A stretch of DNA of 64,000 nucleotides from positions 124,001 to 188,000 of the forward strand of contig CAMFLR010000003.1 of NCBI GenBank assembly GCA_945957605.1. Reading direction: 5' to 3'. The notes beneath the pieces were generated by a model that worked only from the letters and a program-made list of their open reading frames with translations, ran no database searches and was not told where the DNA came from. Made by a program: the position numbers and the translations under genes. This document shows positions 29,078 through 40,066 of this stretch, in pieces (the first letter of the stretch is position 1; every line of letters starts with the position of its first letter). This stretch comes from an uncultured Isosphaeraceae bacterium (GTDB lineage: Bacteria > Planctomycetota > Planctomycetia > Isosphaerales > Isosphaeraceae).

Positions 29078-30390
29078 GCCGGCGCTCCCTGAGCGTGGAG
29101 CGCGGTGAATTCGCGAAGCCGGTCGCGCACGGTGGGTGAGTACAACATCGGGCCGACTTCGTCGGAATGCTCGAGGCCAAGAGGCGTGAGAACTTCGCGA
29201 TCGTCGTCGGTCGTTAGCCAGCCACGGTTGCGTAATTCGTCGAGGCCTTCCAAGCTTTCGAGCGAGAAATCTGGGAATTGCGCAGCCAACTCGCGGCGTG
29301 AAAGTCCTTCAGCCTGCAGTAGGCTGAGAATCACGTAGCGACGAATTTGCTCGTCTTCCGAGAGCCAGAGGCCGTGCGTGGCGAATTCGAAGTCGCGTTC
29401 AGTTTGCTCGGTCCATTCGCGGAGAATCGCGTGGACGCTGGGCTGAGTGACGGCGAAGCGCGTGGCGTAGTGCAACTTGCGCGTGTAAGAGCGAGCACCG
29501 CAGCCGAGGCCGATCATGCCATCGCGCTGGCAGGCATAGACCGTCGGCTTTTGATCTTGCGGCCGGCGGAAACAGCGGAGCGAGATTTGTTCATATCCAG
29601 ACACCGTCAGCAAATCGCGGGCTTCGCGATAGAGGTCGGAGCGGTGTTGTGTGGCGGCGAGGCCGGCTTTTGCGAGTCCGGTTTGCGGTCGGATATAGAG
29701 GGGATAGAGGTAGAGTTCCTCGGGCTCGTGTTGCAGGGCTTGTTGGAGTGAGTATTGCCAAGACTCGCGTGATTGCTCGGGATGGCCGTAGATCAGGTCG
29801 AGATTGAGGTCGAACGCGCCGGCTTGTCGGATGGTTTCGATCGCGGAATGGACGTCGCGCGGGTTTTGGGGCCGCCCGAAGAGACGTGTTTCGGCTTCGG
29901 AGAATGACTGAACGCCGAGGCTGATGCGCTGGACGCCGAAATGGGCGAGGATGGCGAGGCGGTCGATCGTCGCAGTTGTCGGCGACGTTTCCACCGAGGT
30001 TGGCATACGGGAAACTTGCTGGCCGGTGTTGGTTTCGATCGCTTCAAATAACCGTTCCAATTGGCCAGCTTCGAGAAATGTGGGAGTGCCGCCGCCGACT
30101 GCGAATTGCGCGAACGATGCCTTTGGTACGCTCGCGCGGACGACTTTCATTTGCGTGAGCAATGTGTCGAGATAGCGTTCGACGAGGTCTTCTTCGGGCT
30201 GCGATCGGGTGAACAGATTGCAGAAGCCGCAGCGCATTTCGCAAAAAGGGATGTGAATGTAAAGCGAGAGGTTGCTCACATCTCCGCCCGACCATGCGTC
30301 GGCGATTCGTATCGGCGGCTGCAACGGTCCGTATGACGACTTGTGGGGGTATGAATAGGCGTAAGCCGAAAGTTCGGCGGCGTCCATCAT
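29074..30390 (-). CDS. STM4012 family radical SAM protein (HemN-like)
   Basis: 438 aa from the ATG at 30390, which has GGAGG eight bases upstream. The HemN-type site is LYIHIPFCEMRCGFCNLF (Cys50, Cys54, Cys57), followed by VGGGTPTFLEAGQLERLF and SVETSPTTA, the SAM-binding segments of coproporphyrinogen III oxidase-like enzymes. The family is named after Salmonella STM4012 and is not a proven haem enzyme. ATGA overlaps occur at both ends, with the STM4014/4013 fusion upstream and STM4011 downstream, so translation is tightly coupled. Confidence 0.92.
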   Translation of the reverse strand: MMDAAELSAYAYSYPHKSSYGPLQPPIRIADAWSGGDVSNLSLYIHIPFCEMRCGFCNLFTRSQPEEDLVERYLDTLLTQMKVVRASVPKASFAQFAVGGGTPTFLEAGQLERLFEAIETNTGQQVSRMPTSVETSPTTATIDRLAILAHFGVQRISLGVQSFSEAETRLFGRPQNPRDVHSAIETIRQAGAFDLNLDLIYGHPEQSRESWQYSLQQALQHEPEELYLYPLYIRPQTGLAKAGLAATQHRSDLYREARDLLTVSGYEQISLRCFRRPQDQKPTVYACQRDGMIGLGCGARSYTRKLHYATRFAVTQPSVHAILREWTEQTERDFEFATHGLWLSEDEQIRRYVILSLLQAEGLSRRELAAQFPDFSLESLEGLDELRNRGWLTTDDDREVLTPLGLEHSDEVGPMLYSPTVRDRLREFTALHAQGAPA

Positions 30391-32345
30391 GTTGTCGCCT
30401 CCAAACGGAATTCGGCGTAAGGGACGGTCCAGACGGCGGAGTGGCCGACGCGGTGGCCTGTCCAACCTTCCTCGCCGAAGAGCGTGCCGTGATCGGACAT
30501 CAGATAGACGGCGCACCGGCGTTTGCGGTTTTTGAGCGCATCGAAGAGCGGCGAAAGATGGCGATCGACATAAGCGAGCGCAGCGCCTTGTGTGGCAGTC
30601 GATTCCTCGCGCTCGCCGCGGAGGTAGGCTCGCGTCGGGGGGTGAGTTGCGGAGATGTTGACGAAAAGGAAGAGGGGCTGTTTGTCAGGGGCGTTTTGAA
30701 CGCTGGCGCAGGCCTGGCGGATTTGTTCGCGCGTGGAATGAGGCGCAGTGACACCGAATTCGGGACGCCAGTGATGTTCGAGAAAGTATGATGGGAAGAC
30801 TGATCCGAGCGGGGTTGAGGGGTCGAAGAAGCCGACGCCGCCGATGCAGATGGTGTGAAATCCGCGGTCGGACAATCCCGCAACGATGTTCGACCCCTTG
30901 AGTTTCAGCGTGTTAGGGCCGACTGTCCGGCTGCCGGGAAACTGGAGTGCGAATGGTCGAGCGTGTTCTCCGGGAGTCGTCGGCGTCGGCCAGAATCCGG
31001 CGAAAAGGGCGGCGTGGGCGGCGTATGTGAAGCTTCCTGGTGAGTGTCGCGGTTCCCAGCCATTGGGAATGAGGGAACACAAAAATGGGGTACGATTTTC
31101 GCGCCATGCGGTTTCGGCGACATCGAACCTCAGGGCGTCAAATGTGATCATGACGATATCAGATTGATCGTCGCGCGGGCGTGATTGTGTGGCCGAAGAA
31201 CGCGTGGATAATTGATGGGGACGTAGCTCGGCTTCGTAGGTTGTTTGGCCGTCGTGGAGCAGGCCTGGTAGATAGCTTCCGAATGCGTTTGCCTCGAGAA
31301 GGGAAAAGTCTTTGCGGTTTGGTCGAACCAAGACGTCGAGGCCTAGCATTCCCGCGCCGGGGAGTTCGGAGACTGCCGCTTTGCAGAGTTGTTCAAGGTC
31401 GCACCACGAGTCGCCGAGTTGTTGGGCCACGACTTCGCGCGGCATCCGCCTGGCGCCGAGGTTGAGGTTTGTGAATGGCGAGGCGCAGGCGCGGCCGACG
31501 ACGTGATGCATCGCGCCGTCGATCATGACGACCCGCAGGTCGTAAGGCGTGCCGTTCCAGCGGGCTTTTGGGAGCCAGCGTTCGATGATGAGATGCTCTG
31601 GGACGAGTGCGTCGATGAGTGCGGCGATTTCGGATTCATTTTGAAGCTGTCGCGGACGTTTGCGAACGAAGAGGCGCGTGCGACCGGCGTCTCGTACGGT
31701 TTCGACCGTTGTGATCGCTCGCACGCGGGAGTCGCGCCATTCGAGGGCGATTGCGCCCATCGCCGAATAACCGTAGCGCGGTTTGAGAAAGATTCGCGCG
31801 TGCGGTTCGGCGATTGTGCTGCGGATCTCGTCGTAGGTGAGATTGCCGGGAAATTGGTGCGGAATCGGCAAGGCGGCGTTTGCCCAGCGCGAGAGGCACT
31901 CGGCCTTGTCGAATGCGGTGACGATTGAATCGGGCGTCGACATCCAGCGGATGTCCGCGTCTTTCCAGACGGAGTCGATCGATTTCAGCGCGGCACGCAG
32001 GCCGAGAAACCACTGGCGAGGGCGGATAATTTCGCTGCCCGTGAAGCTCAGCTCGCGAATGTCGGCTGCGGAAATTGGCTGATAGCCTTCGGCCACTAAT
32101 TGATCGATTCCCAACTCCAGAAGCGTGCGAGCCGTTTCGACGCAGCCGCCTGGGGATTCGAATCGCACGAGCGTTCCGGGCGGCGGAGGTGCATACGTTC
32201 CGTGGATTGCGTCGCGATAGGAAATGATGGAAACATCGGCCGCGCCGAGGCGATTGGCGGTCTCCGCGAATGATTTGACTCGCGGAGACTCGCGCGGTCC
32301 GATGATGAGCAGGCAAGGAAGCCGCGACCTTTGATCACTCGGCAT
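30387..32345 (-). CDS. STM4014 (ATP-grasp) - STM4013 (phosphatase-superfamily hydrolase) fusion
   Basis: 652 aa. Residues 1-375 match the STM4014 ATP-grasp family: Lys188 in RIFLKPRYGYSAMG, FVRKRP near 227 and Glu351/Asn353 in LLEANAFG. After a polar linker (376-394) residues 395-652 match the STM4013 hydrolase of the alkaline-phosphatase/sulfatase superfamily: Asp403 in VMITFDALRFD, Thr440 in SFTYAAH (possible nucleophile), Asp618-His619 in SDHG, His631 and His635 in GHRVGH. In Salmonella these are two genes. There is an 11-base overlap with STM4015 upstream and a 4-base overlap with STM4012 downstream. Confidence 0.9.
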   Translation of the reverse strand: MPSDQRSRLPCLLIIGPRESPRVKSFAETANRLGAADVSIISYRDAIHGTYAPPPPGTLVRFESPGGCVETARTLLELGIDQLVAEGYQPISAADIRELSFTGSEIIRPRQWFLGLRAALKSIDSVWKDADIRWMSTPDSIVTAFDKAECLSRWANAALPIPHQFPGNLTYDEIRSTIAEPHARIFLKPRYGYSAMGAIALEWRDSRVRAITTVETVRDAGRTRLFVRKRPRQLQNESEIAALIDALVPEHLIIERWLPKARWNGTPYDLRVVMIDGAMHHVVGRACASPFTNLNLGARRMPREVVAQQLGDSWCDLEQLCKAAVSELPGAGMLGLDVLVRPNRKDFSLLEANAFGSYLPGLLHDGQTTYEAELRPHQLSTRSSATQSRPRDDQSDIVMITFDALRFDVAETAWRENRTPFLCSLIPNGWEPRHSPGSFTYAAHAALFAGFWPTPTTPGEHARPFALQFPGSRTVGPNTLKLKGSNIVAGLSDRGFHTICIGGVGFFDPSTPLGSVFPSYFLEHHWRPEFGVTAPHSTREQIRQACASVQNAPDKQPLFLFVNISATHPPTRAYLRGEREESTATQGAALAYVDRHLSPLFDALKNRKRRCAVYLMSDHGTLFGEEGWTGHRVGHSAVWTVPYAEFRLEATT

Positions 32346-33252
32346 GAAGAATGAATCTCCACTCCTCGTCAGTTTCTTGCCGGTCTTCAGCGATCACGTT
32401 GCACTTGAGCACGCCCTTGAGTGCGGCGATATTATCTTCGGTCGCGTAATGGTGCGAGATGTTCAGGGTTTCCAGGTTGGGAAACGCTGCGAGGGCTTCG
32501 AGCGACTTGACACCTTCGCTGCTGAGATTTCCCATCGACAGGTCGAGCGTTTTCAGGCGCGAGACGATGGGGGAATTGACGACCACCGCGGCGATTTCGT
32601 CTTCGATCTCGCTGTTCATCAGCCCCAGCCAATTGAGCTTGGGATAGAGACGACCCGAGAGCAGTGGTTGCAAGTCTTCGACGCCGCCATCGAAGCCGTA
32701 ATTCTCCTCACCGAGCAGCAATTCGAGATGGTCGATCGCGGGAAAGTCGCAAAGAAAGATCTCACGAATCGCCGAGCGAGGAAGTCCGCCGGTTTCGACT
32801 GCGAGTTCGCGGAGCGTGTCGTGCTGTATCTTCGAGAACGACAGTTTCGTGCCGCCGCGAACGCGGAATGATTCGAGCTTGGGGAAAGCCTTTATCAGGG
32901 GCGAGACGTCGCACTGGTTGATCCAGGAGATTTCGCACTCTTCATACGTCATCTCGCCGAAAAAGAGGTGCTGAAGTGCTGGCAGCTTGGGAGCCGCTTC
33001 GACGACGGCCGTGGCGATCGGCTCCGAGCTATCGCCTTCGCAGACCGAATTCCAGGCGCCGATGATCAGGTGCGTCAGTTTGTCGGCACCAGGCTGGTCG
33101 AGCAGCAGGGCGAGTCGATCGGCAAGGCTTTCTTCGTCGTCGTATTCGGAGCGGAGACGATAGGCAGCGTCGGGACCATCCCAGTCGTCGGCCTTATTGA
33201 AGTCGACAACTTTTGCCGATTGAAAGGTCTCGATCAGATCGTTGTAGCCCAT
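32335..33252 (-). CDS. STM4015 family leucine-rich-repeat protein
   Basis: 305 aa from the ATG at 33252, preceded by AGGGACC. It has an N-terminal domain of about 95 residues, then LRR-like units (LQHLFFGEM, LESFRVRGG, LRELAVETGG, LNWLGLMNS, LKTLDLSMGNLSSEG, LETLNISHHY). The family is named after Salmonella STM4015. The repeats point to a binding or scaffold role. It ends inside the start of the ATP-grasp/hydrolase fusion and follows the DUF6745 gene by 38 bases, so all are one transcription unit. Confidence 0.9.
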   Translation of the reverse strand: MGYNDLIETFQSAKVVDFNKADDWDGPDAAYRLRSEYDDEESLADRLALLLDQPGADKLTHLIIGAWNSVCEGDSSEPIATAVVEAAPKLPALQHLFFGEMTYEECEISWINQCDVSPLIKAFPKLESFRVRGGTKLSFSKIQHDTLRELAVETGGLPRSAIREIFLCDFPAIDHLELLLGEENYGFDGGVEDLQPLLSGRLYPKLNWLGLMNSEIEDEIAAVVVNSPIVSRLKTLDLSMGNLSSEGVKSLEALAAFPNLETLNISHHYATEDNIAALKGVLKCNVIAEDRQETDEEWRFILHAE

Positions 33253-33290
33253 GTATCGGTCCCTGAAGGTGTATGGAGGGGGCGCGAACC

Positions 33291-34316
33291 TTAGGTTTCC
33301 TGAATCGGCCGGTAGTCGTCGGGATCGTCGAAGCCGGCAATCCATGCGGCGGCGTGGCGACAGGTGGGTGTCGTTGGCGGAACGCGGATGATGTACTGCC
33401 GCCCGGTCGATGGGCAGTAGCACGACATCGCGACGAGATCTTCGTCGTCCTTGAGCGCCACGCGCATGAGTTGGCGAGGGCCGCCGGGGTCGGTGTCGTG
33501 ATCGACGATATCAGCATTTGAATCGACGAGGAAACGACCGTAGCCGTAACGGTCGAGCAGCACGCGACGGCGTTCGGCGTTGCGTTCTTCGAGGATTTCG
33601 TCGACTTGCATTTGATCGGGATAGAAGGCGATCCGCCGATCGACGTTGATTCCTGCCCATCGAAGCTGGGTCGAATCGAGGCTGCGGGGGAGCATCGCTT
33701 CTTGCGTCAGTCCACTGTGTGCGAGGTCGAGCCAGCCGCTTACCACGAGGTCGTTGGGCAGTGATGCGAGGTTGGGGCAATCGCGCACATTGAGCGCGGA
33801 AACGCGGTTCAGGTATGCGGGCAAAGATCTTAAAGCGGTGCAGCCGCGAAGTTGGAGCGATCCGCTATGAATCCTGGCGACGCGCGGCCAGACCTCGAAC
33901 GCCCAGCAACCGGTCATATCCAGAAACCAGACGTCGAGGTTTTCTGGAAGCTCACGAATCGCGGTGCAACTGCGGAGAACGAGCGTACCGACAGTCAGGC
34001 CAACTGGTAGCTCGACCAATTGTTCACAGCGCGTGAGGTCGATGCGGGTCGACACGCTCAGGTCGGCGGGAAGCGCCTCGATGGGCGTGCGCGAAAGGTT
34101 CAGCTCGTAGCATGACAGGCCCGAAGGGAGCGAATGTATCTCGCGCCCTGAGAGGTCGAGTACGTCGACAGCGAGGCTGTCGGGAAATTTGGCGGGCAGA
34201 GGACGCTCGGATTTGTCGGAATAGTCGAGCGTTCCTTGGACGATAAGCCCCTCGAGTGGGGAATCGGCTTCGAGCAGTCGATAGGCCTCGTCGGCCGTAA
34301 CGGGATGATGCGCCAT
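33291..34316 (-). CDS. DUF6745-like leucine-rich protein
   Basis: 341 aa from the ATG at 34316 (MAHHPVTADEAYRLL). The N-terminal two thirds hold short LRR-like repeats (VDVLDLSGREIHSLP, YELNLSRTPIEALP, STRIDLTRCEQLVELP, GTLVLRSCTAIRELP). The C-terminal block DPGGPRQLMRVALKDDEDLVAMSCYCPSTGRQYIIRVPP, ending in CRHAAAWIAGFD, is typical of DUF6745. Function unknown. It lies 25 bases after the small QGD/HEHG protein and 38 before STM4015. Two repeat-type binding proteins in one operon is notable. Confidence 0.8.
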   Translation of the reverse strand: MAHHPVTADEAYRLLEADSPLEGLIVQGTLDYSDKSERPLPAKFPDSLAVDVLDLSGREIHSLPSGLSCYELNLSRTPIEALPADLSVSTRIDLTRCEQLVELPVGLTVGTLVLRSCTAIRELPENLDVWFLDMTGCWAFEVWPRVARIHSGSLQLRGCTALRSLPAYLNRVSALNVRDCPNLASLPNDLVVSGWLDLAHSGLTQEAMLPRSLDSTQLRWAGINVDRRIAFYPDQMQVDEILEERNAERRRVLLDRYGYGRFLVDSNADIVDHDTDPGGPRQLMRVALKDDEDLVAMSCYCPSTGRQYIIRVPPTTPTCRHAAAWIAGFDDPDDYRPIQET

Positions 34317-34341
34317 GACTTCTTGTCCCCGTCGGTGGCGG

Positions 34342-34644
34342 TTAATCCCGGACGATGCGAATCTCGCGCGGCGCGTATTCACGCTGGCGCCAAACGCGAT
34401 AGAGTCCCCTTGGAAGGGAAATGGGGCCATGTTCCTGATGGATCAGCGTTGCGCGATCCTCGGTGACGCGAAGGTAAAGGTCTTGAGCCGATTGATATAA
34501 GTTCGCCGCGGTTCGCTCGGCGATGCGATGCGAATGGCCGGTTAGCTCGCCTTCTGCCAGAACTAGATGATTAAGTAAGCGTGCGTTGCCAGGTATTTCG
34601 TCTGCGTCGGCCGCAAGCAGATCACCGTGTCGATAGAGCGGCAT
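34342..34644 (-). CDS. Small QGD/HEHG family protein, first gene of the STM operon
   Basis: 100 aa from the ATG at 34644, which has GGAG seven bases upstream. Family features: RHGDLLAADADEIP near the N-terminus, LAEGELTGHSHRI in the middle and HQEHGPISLPRGLYRVWRQREY at the C-terminus. Similar small proteins, often near DUF6745 genes or in phages, are known only as hypothetical. The fold is probably all-beta. It opens the operon that continues DUF6745, STM4015, STM4014/4013, STM4012, STM4011. The C-terminal half of the 266-aa protein at 42787 shows the same pattern. Confidence 0.78.
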   Translation of the reverse strand: MPLYRHGDLLAADADEIPGNARLLNHLVLAEGELTGHSHRIAERTAANLYQSAQDLYLRVTEDRATLIHQEHGPISLPRGLYRVWRQREYAPREIRIVRD

Positions 34645-34836: not shown

Positions 34837-35898
34837 ATGCGTAAGCTTGCAAGCGTTCAGACTGTAAGCACGGTCGAGGCGATTCCCGGCGCCGATGCGA
34901 TTGAGAAGATCCGCGTGCTTGGTTGGTGGATTGTCGCGAAGAGGGGGGAGTATCGGCCCGGCGATAAGATCATCTATTGCGAAATCGACTCGCTGCTTCC
35001 CGAGCGGTCTGAGTTCGAGTTCTTGCGCGCGAGCAGCTTCAAATCGGCGCAAACCGGTTTTGATGGGACGATCACCCTACCGGCCGGATTTCGAATCAAA
35101 ACGGTCCGCCTGCGCGGGCAGGTATCGCAAGGAATCTGCTTTCCGCTCTCGCTCTTGCCTTCAGGCATAGGTACAGAAGTTGGGGCTGATGTGACCGAGC
35201 CTCTCGGCATACTCAAGTGGGAGCCACCGATTCCCGTCGGCATGGGAGGAAAGGTGAAGGGTAACTTCCCCGCCTTCTTGCCCAAGACCGACGAAACGCG
35301 CATTCAGGTGCTGGAGGCCGTGCTCGAGCGGCATCGCGGAAAGACGTTTTATGTGACCGAAAAGCTCGATGGCACGTCATTCAGCGCGTTCGTTCGCGAA
35401 GGGGAATTCGGCATCTGCAGCCGCAATCTCTGGATGGATGAGTCGGACGAGTCGAACATTTTGTCGAGGGTCGCCCGGGAGCAGAAGCTTGAGGAGAAGC
35501 TACGTACGGCTCGCGAAAGGCTTGGCTTCGACGTGGCGATTCAGGCAGAGGTGATTGGGCCTGGCATTCAGAAGAATAAGTATGCGATCAAAGGAGTGTC
35601 GTTGCGCGTCTTCAGCGTGCTTGATGTGAACGCATATCGGCTGGTCGATCATGCGACGCAAATAGAGTTGCTGGGCGCGATCGGGCTCGAGCCGGTTCCG
35701 CAACTGGGGACGATCGAACTGAATCACACGGTGGACGAACTGGTGGCGATTTCGGAAGGTGCCAGCGTGCTGAATTCGCAAGTCCAGCGCGAAGGGATTG
35801 TGCTGCGGCCGTTGGTTGAGGAGTACGATGCCGACATCGGCGGAAGGCTCAGTTTCAAGGTGATCAACCCGAAGTTCTTGCTCAAGTATGATGAGTGA
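34837..35898 (+). CDS. ATP-dependent RNA ligase, Rnl5 (Deinococcus DraRnl) type
   Basis: 353 aa. AAGGAG lies six bases before the ATG at 34837. An N-terminal OB-like domain (residues 1-150) precedes the adenylyltransferase: nucleophile Lys176 in EKLDGTSF (motif I), SRNLWM (Ia), IQAEVIGPG (III), EGIVLRP (IV) and FKVINPKFLLKY (V). This domain order is that of the Deinococcus radiodurans RNA ligase family, which seals 3'-OH/5'-phosphate RNA breaks, often nicks in duplexes. The STAS gene follows after 130 bases, then the RRF paralogue. It sits opposite the STM operon and close to a second ligase with HD-Pnk. Confidence 0.88.
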   Translation: MRKLASVQTVSTVEAIPGADAIEKIRVLGWWIVAKRGEYRPGDKIIYCEIDSLLPERSEFEFLRASSFKSAQTGFDGTITLPAGFRIKTVRLRGQVSQGICFPLSLLPSGIGTEVGADVTEPLGILKWEPPIPVGMGGKVKGNFPAFLPKTDETRIQVLEAVLERHRGKTFYVTEKLDGTSFSAFVREGEFGICSRNLWMDESDESNILSRVAREQKLEEKLRTARERLGFDVAIQAEVIGPGIQKNKYAIKGVSLRVFSVLDVNAYRLVDHATQIELLGAIGLEPVPQLGTIELNHTVDELVAISEGASVLNSQVQREGIVLRPLVEEYDADIGGRLSFKVINPKFLLKYDE

Positions 35899-36028: not shown

Positions 36029-36370
36029 ATGATTCTCCATGCAACGGTCGATGGCGACGTCGTCATCCTTAGCAATTTCGGTGGTTTGCTGAACGACCCG
36101 AGGCATTTCGATGCGGGGAAGGATGTTCGACAATTCCTCGATCAAGGCCATCGCAAGTTCATTCTGGAGATGACGAATATCCGCGATCTCGGCGATACTG
36201 CGCTCGGGCTTCTGCTGACTCTGACGCGACAGATCAGGCAGGCCAAGGGGGAGATGATCATTGCGAAGCCGGGTAAAGGGGTTCTCTCATTCCTGAATGA
36301 GATGCAGATGGAAGATTACTGGAGCATTGCCGATACGGTTGAAGAGGCGTGCAAGATGTTGGGAAAGTAA
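36029..36370 (+). CDS. STAS domain protein (anti-sigma-factor antagonist-like)
   Basis: 113 aa from the ATG at 36029. The pattern ILEMTNIRDLGDTALGLLLTLTRQIRQAKGEMIIAKP is the STAS fold with a Thr at the usual phosphorylated Ser/Thr position (DTALG). Such proteins switch anti-sigma factors or act in stressosome-like signalling. It lies between the RNA ligase and the RRF paralogue (46 bases upstream of the latter), suggesting a regulatory part of the same operon. No kinase or anti-sigma gene lies nearby. Confidence 0.85.
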   Translation: MILHATVDGDVVILSNFGGLLNDPRHFDAGKDVRQFLDQGHRKFILEMTNIRDLGDTALGLLLTLTRQIRQAKGEMIIAKPGKGVLSFLNEMQMEDYWSIADTVEEACKMLGK

Positions 36371-36416: not shown

Positions 36417-36920
36417 ATGAACGATTGGAAGCCGCGGATGGAGACGGCGGTGCGTCATCTCGCTGGGCAACTGGCGGGAATCCGTACGGGGACGATCAGT
36501 CTTGGGTTCATCGAGACCGTGCGCGCCGACTGCCAGGGGAACTCTGTGTCGATTCGGCGGCTGGGAGTGATCAAACAGCAGGGCGATCGCATCCTTGTCA
36601 CGCCATTCGATAAGGCGAATGTCTCCGCTGTGGTGAGGGCGCTTACCGAGGCCCGGCTCAATGCTTATGCCTTGAACCCGACTACGGTCAGCGTGAGCAT
36701 TCCGCCGATTAGCGGTGAGCAACGCGCCGAGATTGCCAAGCACGTGAAAAAGCTGGGGGAAAATGCCAGGATTGCGGTCCGACAGATCCGTCAGGACGCT
36801 CGCAAGAAGATTGAAGCGACGGGACGAGGTTCGCAACGCTCTGTCGAAGAGGCGACTGAAGCGGCGGTTGCAGAGATTGACCGGCTTGTGAAGGAGAAGG
36901 TTAAGGAGGTTGGATCGTGA
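36417..36920 (+). CDS. Ribosome-recycling-factor family paralogue
   Basis: 167 aa, about 18 shorter than typical RRF. Conserved blocks: METAVRHLAGQLAGIRTG (the tRNA-mimicking helix with IRTG), RILVTPFDKANVSAVVRAL, VSIPPISGEQRAEIAKHVKKL and ARIAVRQIRQDARKKIEA. The N-terminus is short and the acidic turn before the last helix is reduced. It is not in the usual pyrH/tsf context but follows an RNA ligase and a STAS gene. It could be a specialised factor that splits damaged or stalled ribosomes. Whether the genome has a second, standard frr cannot be seen here. Confidence 0.85.
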   Translation: MNDWKPRMETAVRHLAGQLAGIRTGTISLGFIETVRADCQGNSVSIRRLGVIKQQGDRILVTPFDKANVSAVVRALTEARLNAYALNPTTVSVSIPPISGEQRAEIAKHVKKLGENARIAVRQIRQDARKKIEATGRGSQRSVEEATEAAVAEIDRLVKEKVKEVGS

Positions 36921-37004: not shown

Positions 37005-38132
37005 TCAGCTCTCGGACGATGTCCCGGTGGTGATGACAACGTCGTGGACTTCGGAGAGTGTGGGCGGTTCGAGCTTTTCGGCGAGGCGGAGGATGACTCG
37101 CTCGGGGACGGGGTTTGAGCGGCGCGCATTTCGCGCGAGGATGACGGGCAGGGGCGGCTCGATGTAGACGATTTCGATTCGCGCACCGTAGTCGGCAAAG
37201 AGGTCGATCCAGGCGCGACGCGTCTGACGAAGCAAGTTCGTCGCATTGAACGCGAACGACCGCCCTGCGCGTAAGTGTTCTCGACATCGCTCGCGACCAG
37301 CCTGAATGACTTCACCCTGGTCATCGGTTGCGTTGACGTCTAACTGGCGACGCAGGTCGTCGAGCGAAACGACGGGCAAATCTGGCCGATGGGCGGCCAG
37401 CCACGAGTCCTTGCCAGAACCGGGGAGGCCCGAAAGCATTGTCACCGTGCAACGGTGGTCGACGTGTGGGATGTAGTGCAGGCTGGGATGCTCTTGCCGG
37501 TGAAAGAGAAATCGAGCGTGATCGCTGGCGAACGGGTAGGGATGGTCGAAGCAGTCGTTTTCTTCGGCGGCGAGCCGGAAGATGTGGAGATTCTCTTCGG
37601 GGCGACTGGTCTCGGTGGAGGCGCGCCCGCGGGTGTCGGCAAGAGCGAAAAGGTAGAGGAGGCGGTTGCTTACCAGCCACGAGAGCGACGCAACTTCGTG
37701 CGACGGTTCGGGCTTTTCGAGCAGAAACGCCGGCCGGCCGTGAAAGCGGACCATCCGGGCGATTTCCTCGCGGATTGTGAGGTCGCAGTCGAGGTCGCGC
37801 AAAACGAACCGGGCGAGATGTTCCCCCTTGATGGCGTGCTTCGGTGAGGTGATTCGTCCTGTCGCTGGGTCGACCTGTGACGTGAGCGGTTTGCCAGCGT
37901 CGTGCAGGAGCGCTGTGAAGAGGAGGAGGATTCGCTCGCGATTATCGAGCGCGGGCCATTCGTCCAGCATGGGAAGCTGGTTGCAGACCATTTTTGTATG
38001 CGTCCACACGTCCCCTTCGGCGTGCCAGCCGCGGTCCTGGTTGCAGGCAGCCATCGCCTGAGCCCACGGCTGATTCGTAGCCCACGTCAAGATATCGTCG
38101 TGCGAAGACGTTTGAATTTCGCGCCAGTTCAT
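37005..38132 (-). CDS. HD-Pnk RNA end-healing enzyme (HD phosphoesterase + polynucleotide kinase)
   Basis: 375 aa from the ATG at 38132. The N-terminal HD domain has His45 (VWTHTKMV), His77-Asp78 (ALLHDAGKP) and downstream His131 (RFHGRP). The C-terminal P-loop kinase has GLPGSGKDS (234-242), an Asp pair in [23 protein letters not shown] and IVYIEPPLP. This is the architecture of Runella HD-Pnk, shown to remove 2',3'-cyclic or 3'-phosphate and to phosphorylate 5'-OH ends. The start overlaps the ligase stop as ATGA, so healing and sealing enzymes are made together. Confidence 0.92.
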
Positions 38133-38869
38133 GACCAGATGTCCGCTGCGTCGTGCAGTTGGTTGGGGATCATCGCCCGGTGCTGCCAATGCTCGCTTTG
38201 TTTGATCTTTTCCACGAACTCGGGTCGCACGAACTTGGCTCTGCCCGTGACGACGCCTTTGGCTTCAGTCCTGAGATAGAGCCCTTCCATCAGGTTGTCG
38301 GTGCGGCTGATGAGTGGGTTGTCAAACTCGGCGTCGAATTGGGACGGTCCTATCAACGCTTCGAGCCGGTCGCGATCCAAAGTACCTCGATGGATCACCG
38401 GAACCGTTTGAAGCCCAGTTCCATCGAGCAATTTGAGCCGGCGTTCGAGATCGAGGAATGCGCTGGATTGTTTGTCGTAGATATCGAATTCGAAGAAGTA
38501 ATGCGGCAGTCGCTTGTAAAGGACCGAATGCTTCGCATAAACCCATTCGCCGAAGAGGATGAACTGATCTTCGAGCATCACCTCCAGGACCGTACGCTTG
38601 ACGGCGGCCCATTGCTTGAGGAGATCGTACTGAGGGTGCATCCCTTCGGTGATCAGGTGCCCGCGGGACTGAAGGTTCATCACTCCATCGGCCGAGAAGT
38701 GGATGCCGACGTTCGTGCCGTCGAGTTTCTCTTCGACGATGAGCGACGCGTCGGTGAGGAACCGGGATGATTCGAAGTCGTCGAGATGTTTGTCGTCGTC
38801 AGTCCCTCGAGAGCCAAAGAGGTGAGGCGTCCTTGGGTACTTGACGAATTCGCCCTGTGACCGCCCCAT
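38129..38869 (-). CDS. ATP-dependent RNA ligase paired with HD-Pnk
   Basis: 246 aa. Adenylyltransferase motifs: Lys48 in [11 protein letters not shown] (I), LQSRGH (Ia), [13 protein letters not shown] (III), EGLYLRTE (IV) and RAKFVRPEF (V). The N-terminus [13 protein letters not shown] is typical of the small ligases found with HD-Pnk. It lacks the OB-like N-terminal domain of the ligase at 34837, so the two belong to different families. It is the first gene of a two-gene operon with HD-Pnk. Likely seals RNA after the partner has restored 3'-OH and 5'-phosphate. Confidence 0.9.
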
Positions 38870-39086: not shown

Positions 39087-39092
39087 TGGCAG

Positions 39093-39454
39093 TGGAGGCG
39101 GCGGGAATTGCACCCGCGTCCCGAGACCCGTTAGTGAGGGCGTCTACGTGCGTAGTCGATCATTTAATTGTCGGCGACGACACCCTGATCGACAAGGTTG
39201 CCGTTCGCTTAGCCCACCATGAATTTAGTCCGTGCCGCAATGGGCGGTTAGGCACAAACGATCCCGCATTGTCGTCACCGGGCGGCCCTAGCAGGAGAAG
39301 GGTCGCCGCGATGCCACTCAACTGCCTTAGGCAGCGAGACGGAGCGAGGTATTCTCGCCAGTTAACATTTTAGTCGGCTTTTTACGAGGCCCGCTGACCA
39401 ACCTCGGCACGCAACCGGACACCTTCGCAATCCGGTCGATCCTAGTTCGCCCCC
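39093..39454 (-). ncRNA. ssrA: Transfer-messenger RNA (tmRNA)
   Basis: Minus strand. The 5' end GGGGGCG pairs exactly with CGCCTCC before the discriminator A at 39093. The 3' T-arm GGACGCGGGTGCAATTCCCG and the 5' CTAGGATCGACCGG block are canonical, as is CCTCGTAAAAAGCC. A reading frame from GGC at 39359 to TAA at 39329-39327 encodes the tag GENTSLRLAA. CCA is not encoded (CTG follows the A), so it must be added. Length 362 nt. It works with SmpB, encoded 91 bases upstream, to free stalled ribosomes. Confidence 0.95.
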
Positions 39455-39545: not shown

Positions 39546-40037
39546 TCAATAACGCGAGCGGGAGGCACGGTCGATTTCGCGCTTGGCGTCTTGTTGCTTG
39601 ATCGCGTCGCGCTTGTCGTAGTTTTTCCGGCCCTTCGCGATCGAAATTTCAACCTTCGCGATGCCGTTCTTGAAATAGATCTGTAAGGGAATCAGAGTCA
39701 TGCCGCGATCTGTCGCTTTTGCCGCGAACTTGGTGATCTCGGCGCGGTGCATCAGCAACTTCCTGGGGCGTTTGGGTTTGTGATTCATCCGGTTCGCCTG
39801 GAGGTATTCCGGAATATCACAACCGTTTAGCCAGACTTCTTCCCCATCGATCGAAGCGTAAGCCTCTTCAAGGCTCGCTTTGCCGGTCCGGAGGCTTTTG
39901 ACCTCAGTTCCGGTCAGGACGATTCCGGCTTCGATCTTGTCGAGTAGGTCGTACTCGAAGCGTGCGCGACGGTTGCGCGCGACTACCTTGATCGAGCCGT
40001 CGTCCTTGTCTTTTTTTCCGCTATCTTTCTTCGCCAT
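39546..40037 (-). CDS. smpB: SmpB, tmRNA-binding protein
   Basis: 163 aa from the ATG at 40037 (MAKKDSGKKDKDD). SmpB core: ARFEYDLLDKIEAGIVLTGTEVKSLR, then LHRAEITK-like LLMHRAEITKFAAKATDRGMTLIPLQIYFKNG and a basic C-terminal tail KGRKNYDKRDAIKQQDAKREI, the part that enters the mRNA channel. The lysine/aspartate-rich N-terminal extension is short. It lies directly upstream of ssrA and 29 bases after folK, probably in a dapL-folK-smpB-ssrA unit. Confidence 0.96.
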   Translation of the reverse strand: MAKKDSGKKDKDDGSIKVVARNRRARFEYDLLDKIEAGIVLTGTEVKSLRTGKASLEEAYASIDGEEVWLNGCDIPEYLQANRMNHKPKRPRKLLMHRAEITKFAAKATDRGMTLIPLQIYFKNGIAKVEISIAKGRKNYDKRDAIKQQDAKREIDRASRSRY

Positions 40038-40066
40038 GTCTTCACCCGGCCTTTGCAGACTCAATC

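Follow-up and report, generated by a model that had tools for sequence, protein, structure and literature searches.

The RRF2 locus

The window, the whole 64,000-nucleotide stretch of an Isosphaeraceae contig that was analysed, encodes a divergent RRF paralogue of 167 aa, hereafter RRF2, in an intact ORF with an ATG start (Table 1), with the IRTG and AVRQIRQDAR blocks at residues 22-25 and 120-129. RRF2 scored 103.4 bits against the Pfam RRF model PF01765 (curated cut-off 29.7), which places it in the RRF superfamily, and 92.1 bits against the NCBIfam frr equivalog TIGR00496, under the cut-off of 149.1 and hence outside the equivalog family. It is not a chance ORF, because orthologues in the Isosphaeraceae are 52-66% identical and pairwise dN/dS values of 0.07-0.23 indicate purifying selection. 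The genes for an Rnl5/DRB0094-type RNA ligase and a single-domain STAS protein of 113 aa precede RRF2 on the same strand, the latter across a gap of 46 nt. Downstream, on the opposite strand, are an HD-AAA_33 polynucleotide-kinase-like protein (HD-PNK), a second RNA ligase, tmRNA and SmpB, the last two about 2.2 and 2.6 kb from RRF2. A promoter and terminator scan revealed nothing exceeding chance. The first-pass annotation, made from the letters of this DNA, had described an RRF-like ORF with the two blocks, lying after an Rnl5 ligase and a STAS protein and about 2 kb from tmRNA-SmpB, and this description was confirmed throughout.

Two leucine-rich-repeat proteins are encoded further upstream, the second of which carries a C-terminal DUF6745 and has a weak similarity to XopL/XopAE LRR-type models, far under the cut-off. 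Beyond them lies a 652-aa protein composed of an ATP-grasp-like half (YheC/D, just under the cut-off) and a sulfatase-like half.

Table 1. Features of the RRF2 locus (window positions) and the canonical frr gene of the same genome (contig positions).
Feature	Position	Strand	Remarks
652-aa protein	30387-32345	-	ATP-grasp-like and sulfatase-like halves
Two leucine-rich-repeat proteins	32338-34430	-	second with DUF6745
Rnl5/DRB0094-type RNA ligase	34837-35898	+	TIGR02306, 181 bits; RRF2 neighbour, outside conserved unit
Single-domain STAS protein	36029-36370	+	PF01740, 34.5 bits; upstream of RRF2
RRF2	36417-36920	+	PF01765, 103 bits; own clade 100/100; AlphaFold2 model
RRF2 R122-R125 codons	36780-36791	+	R122 and R125 match R129 and R132 of E. 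coli RRF; no variation in RRF2 or canonical RRF
Shortened domain I hairpin tip, GRGS, residues 136-139	36822-36833	+	replaces canonical loop with E-D pair
HD-PNK-like kinase and PF09414 RNA ligase	37008-38869	-	genes overlap by ATGA
tmRNA	39092-39454	-	
SmpB	39546-40064	-	
Canonical frr	G000:C3:67613-68101		order rpsB-tsf-pyrH-frr

Distribution of RRF2 and canonical RRF

RRF is normally encoded by a single-copy essential gene. A search for a second, canonical frr, which the first-pass annotation had named as a check, found a separate copy, which shares the contig with RRF2 at a distance of about 93 kb. It is this copy (C3:67613) that occupies the pyrH/tsf context, outside which RRF2 had correctly been placed. 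RRF2 was found in 18 of 45 Isosphaeraceae genomes, several of them draft or metagenome-assembled, with genes called by ORF and similarity. These genomes hold 19 loci, since one of them (G019) carries two copies (L035 and L036) that are mutual sisters in the tree, in addition to a canonical RRF. Canonical RRF was also present in 17 of the 18 genomes, the exception being an assembly (G059) that is 83% complete.

Across the phylum, an RRF search of 392 Planctomycetota genomes returned two RRFs for the window genome only and exactly one for each of 366 others. In a scan of bacterial and archaeal genomes, RRF2 occurred solely in Isosphaeraceae-type records, among them Singulisphaera acidiphila, Tautonia sociabilis and Aquisphaera insulae, and the identity of the matches dropped directly from 56% to 34%, the level at which canonical RRFs started. 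No relatives were found in the viral contigs searched, and a viral origin or spread of RRF2 was rejected on this basis; a role in a defence system was likewise rejected, as PADLOC gave no match for RRF2 or its neighbours. RRF2 is a conserved second RRF specific to the Isosphaeraceae, found alongside the canonical frr gene and showing no conserved association with RNA ligases. Within the open-access literature, incompletely covered, no description of a second bacterial RRF or of an RRF-STAS link was found, and RRF2 is apparently undescribed there.

Gene neighbourhood of RRF2

The STAS gene, rather than the ligase, is the recurrent partner of RRF2. It is single-copy where present (27 of 45 Isosphaeraceae) and was close to RRF2 in seven genomes from three genera (g1, g7, and g9), with spacings that ranged from a 6-nt gap in two g7 genomes up to about 2.3 kb in four g9 genomes. 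The probability of three independent STAS-RRF2 cases by chance is near 2e-7, as calculated for one gene copy per genome and a genome size of about 7 Mb, with shared descent ignored. Among the 14 genomes with both genes, STAS was near RRF2 in only seven and elsewhere in the other half, so the regulatory link is weak and is taken here as suggestive only.

Other genes recurred at RRF2 loci as well. A thioredoxin gene lies upstream of RRF2 in g9, overlaps it in S. acidiphila and, in T. sociabilis, where it also precedes RRF2, is apparently broken into two frames (L038 9472-9658, minus strand). A YqeY-like gene is divergent to RRF2 in g9 and in a further genome. A recurrent 460-aa "neighbour" (L048 7021-8400, minus strand) was dropped as a probable shadow ORF, since it had no Pfam match, was overlapped by longer ORFs on the opposite strand and contained stops in several genomes.

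Orthologues of Rnl5, at 69% identity or more, were detected in seven of the 45 family genomes, only two of which also had RRF2 (2.8 expected; Fisher p = 0.68), and in the second of these the two genes are megabases apart. Rnl5 adjoined RRF2 at one of the 19 RRF2 loci, that of the window genome. None of the seven other Rnl5 copies, from six genomes, had RRF2, STAS, HD-PNK, or the second ligase within about 7 kb (less at contig ends), and no ligase, HD-PNK, or SmpB was seen near RRF2 at the loci outside the window, on contigs some of which are too short for a full neighbourhood. The ligase surroundings of RRF2 are thus a one-genome arrangement. An RNA-repair operon containing RRF2 was rejected by these neighbourhood and co-occurrence tests, and a tmRNA/SmpB-RRF2 link was rejected because SmpB lay near RRF2 in the window only.

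The ligase genes have a distribution of their own. The PF09414 ligase and HD-PNK form a two-gene cassette in about nine of the 45 genomes, beside RRF2 only in the window, and probably act on their own as a pair that heals and seals RNA ends. In G036 and G066 the ligase comes in two pieces. The Rnl5-type ligase is patchy within the family, with two copies in G024 and identities of 69-80%, and the copies found elsewhere, apart from the genes that neighbour it in the window, may point to mobility.

Phylogeny and origin

In a maximum-likelihood tree of 67 RRF sequences, RRF2 formed a single clade with 100/100 support, on a long branch of 1.75 substitutions per site outside all canonical RRF, and the canonical RRF of the window genome grouped among Isosphaeraceae RRFs. 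RRF2 does not group with normal planctomycete RRF in this tree, and its standing as a paralogue, for which the first-pass annotation had proposed a phylogeny, was not refuted. In AU tests, a sister-group position of RRF2 was not rejected either for Isosphaeraceae RRF (p 0.18) or for planctomycete RRF (p 0.22), so that RRF2 may have arisen by a recent duplication followed by fast change or may have an older origin.

Sequence anatomy and predicted fold

Alignment columns were compared between 19 RRF2 and 48 canonical RRF sequences, in E. coli numbering. R28, G30, P103, R129, and R132 were kept in all 19 RRF2, and G46 and E122 in nearly all; R28, R129, and R132 were also present in every one of the 48 canonical RRFs sampled. 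Against this common core, two class-specific changes, R133 to Q and N136 to R, were fixed in 19/19 RRF2, and the E150-D151 turn was deleted in all of them. The spacing from R132 to Q161 was 18 residues throughout RRF2, compared with 21-28 in canonical RRF. RRF2 is indeed shorter than standard RRF, as first annotated, by about 5 residues at the N-terminus and about 10 at the tip. It is about 29% identical to the canonical RRF of its own genome, with 34% in domain I and 18% in domain II.

An AlphaFold2 model, covering RRF2 alone, predicted the two-domain fold of RRF with a pLDDT of 88.9. The predicted helices (4-20, 100-135, and 140-166) are shorter than those of a canonical Isosphaeraceae RRF modelled likewise as a control (3-26, 108-145, and 151-184). 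The top structural matches of the model were solved RRFs, led by 1ise (Z 19.5, rmsd 2.0 Å over 166 residues), and the ribosome-bound E. coli RRF (4v9d) matched with a Z of 19.1. Sequence ranges in the PDB search had hinted that Ehrlichia and Mycoplasma RRFs might share the short tip, a hint that the spans of the structural alignments did not support.

Domain II of RRF is the part that works with EF-G. In mitochondrial RRF, the tip is close to the peptidyl transferase centre (PMC9067457). The places at which RRF2 has been trimmed (the tip) and rebuilt (domain II) would thus be those that govern access to the substrate and coupling to EF-G.

Proposed role of RRF2

We propose that RRF2 is a conditional accessory splitting or recycling factor that would bind the RRF site and be adjusted to part of the ribosome pool or to a given condition. 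We put the chances of this proposal at about even. Because the fold and R28, R129, and R132 are kept, domain I of RRF2 would dock on the large subunit where RRF binds, and the shortened tip of this domain, at the peptidyl-transferase end, together with the rebuilt domain II may provide the adjustment. Splitting or recycling would proceed with one of the existing EF-G paralogues of the cell, since genes with an EF-G domain IV mostly numbered two to three per genome both with and without RRF2, and no dedicated EF-G partner is visible; a dedicated EF-G/RRF pair of the EF-G2mt type is unsupported for the same reason. Three such genes is the number in most Isosphaeraceae genomes. In several genera the production or activity of RRF2 might be tied to the STAS-domain regulator encoded in front of it.

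A bolder version of this role, to which we would give a slim chance, is that the short tip admits RRF2 to ribosomes that still carry a P-site (peptidyl-)tRNA and are for that reason sterically closed to canonical RRF, and that with EF-G it would split stalled ribosomes before peptide release, linked to the STAS-type regulator. We know of no bacterium in which splitting by an RRF variant before peptide release serves as a rescue route. The uniform tip truncation and the R133 to Q change offer testable hypotheses on the access of recycling factors to ribosomes with P-site tRNA.

The uniform change at R133 and the loss of the E-D tip could equally mean that splitting activity was lost. In the main rival to a splitting factor, which we rank first, RRF2 would sit in the RRF site without productive EF-G coupling, as a brake on recycling or a hibernation-like guard of idle ribosomes or 50S subunits. 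We consider this rival possible, if unlikely. It would account for changes at R133, at N136, in the tip E-D, and across most of domain II in a protein that retains the ribosome-contact arginines, and for RRF2 being optional (not found in 27 of 45 genomes). However, no hibernation-factor gene was noted among the neighbours of RRF2, and the two-domain architecture is maintained, although a pure plug would have no need for domain II.

Retention of RRF2 for dosage, as a second recycling factor that is largely redundant, appears rather improbable: the fold is the same and the conserved residues overlap with those of canonical RRF, but the divergence from its own RRF, the long branch, and the class-specific changes that have become fixed point to a different function. 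A function off the ribosome, with another RNA or protein partner, would suit the strongly diverged domain II and the recurring STAS and thioredoxin neighbours, yet the invariant residues of RRF2 are the ribosome-facing arginines of canonical RRF, and we judge it very improbable. Least probable of all is the role suggested by the first-pass annotation, in which RRF2 is dedicated to RNA repair and, by splitting the ribosomes that carry broken RNA, opens this RNA to the neighbouring ligases, in parallel to PrfH-RtcB; in the window genome Rnl5 adjoins and the second ligase/HD-PNK pair and tmRNA-SmpB lie within about 3 kb, but the adjacency is absent at the other 18 RRF2 loci, the genes do not co-occur (2/45 genomes) and the ligase genes are found elsewhere without RRF2, and the suggestion is abandoned here.

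Comparison with known systems

RRF2 can be set beside three known systems. PrfH-RtcB (RFH) also places a translation-factor paralogue beside an RNA ligase, as RRF2 is placed in the window genome, and the coupling of prfH to RNA repair has been described as a system (PMC6514570). The ligase link of RRF2 differs in being confined to one genome, and the case illustrates that a striking context in a single genome, when not conserved, can mislead.

Mitochondrial RRFmt, which has a dedicated EF-G2mt, resembles RRF2 as an RRF variant adapted to special ribosomes, the specialization of RRF2 being proposed here. RRFmt is extended at its N-terminus, and this extension lies at the very tip that is shortened in RRF2 (PMC8203779). 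It is also the organelle's own RRF, whereas RRF2 is an added copy that comes with no extra EF-G.

The closest counterpart is canonical bacterial RRF (frr; PF01765, TIGR00496), with which RRF2 shares the two-domain fold (Z 19), R28, R129, R132, and E122, and the conserved linker into the long helix. RRF2 departs from it in the residues at 133 and 136, the shorter tip and N-terminus, a score under the frr equivalog cut-off, a domain II of low identity and a position outside the frr operon as an extra copy. Nature has in this way set up an experiment, in a lineage that holds a second, remodelled RRF beside the canonical one, from which the parts of RRF needed for binding, for EF-G coupling, and for the choice of substrate could be learned.
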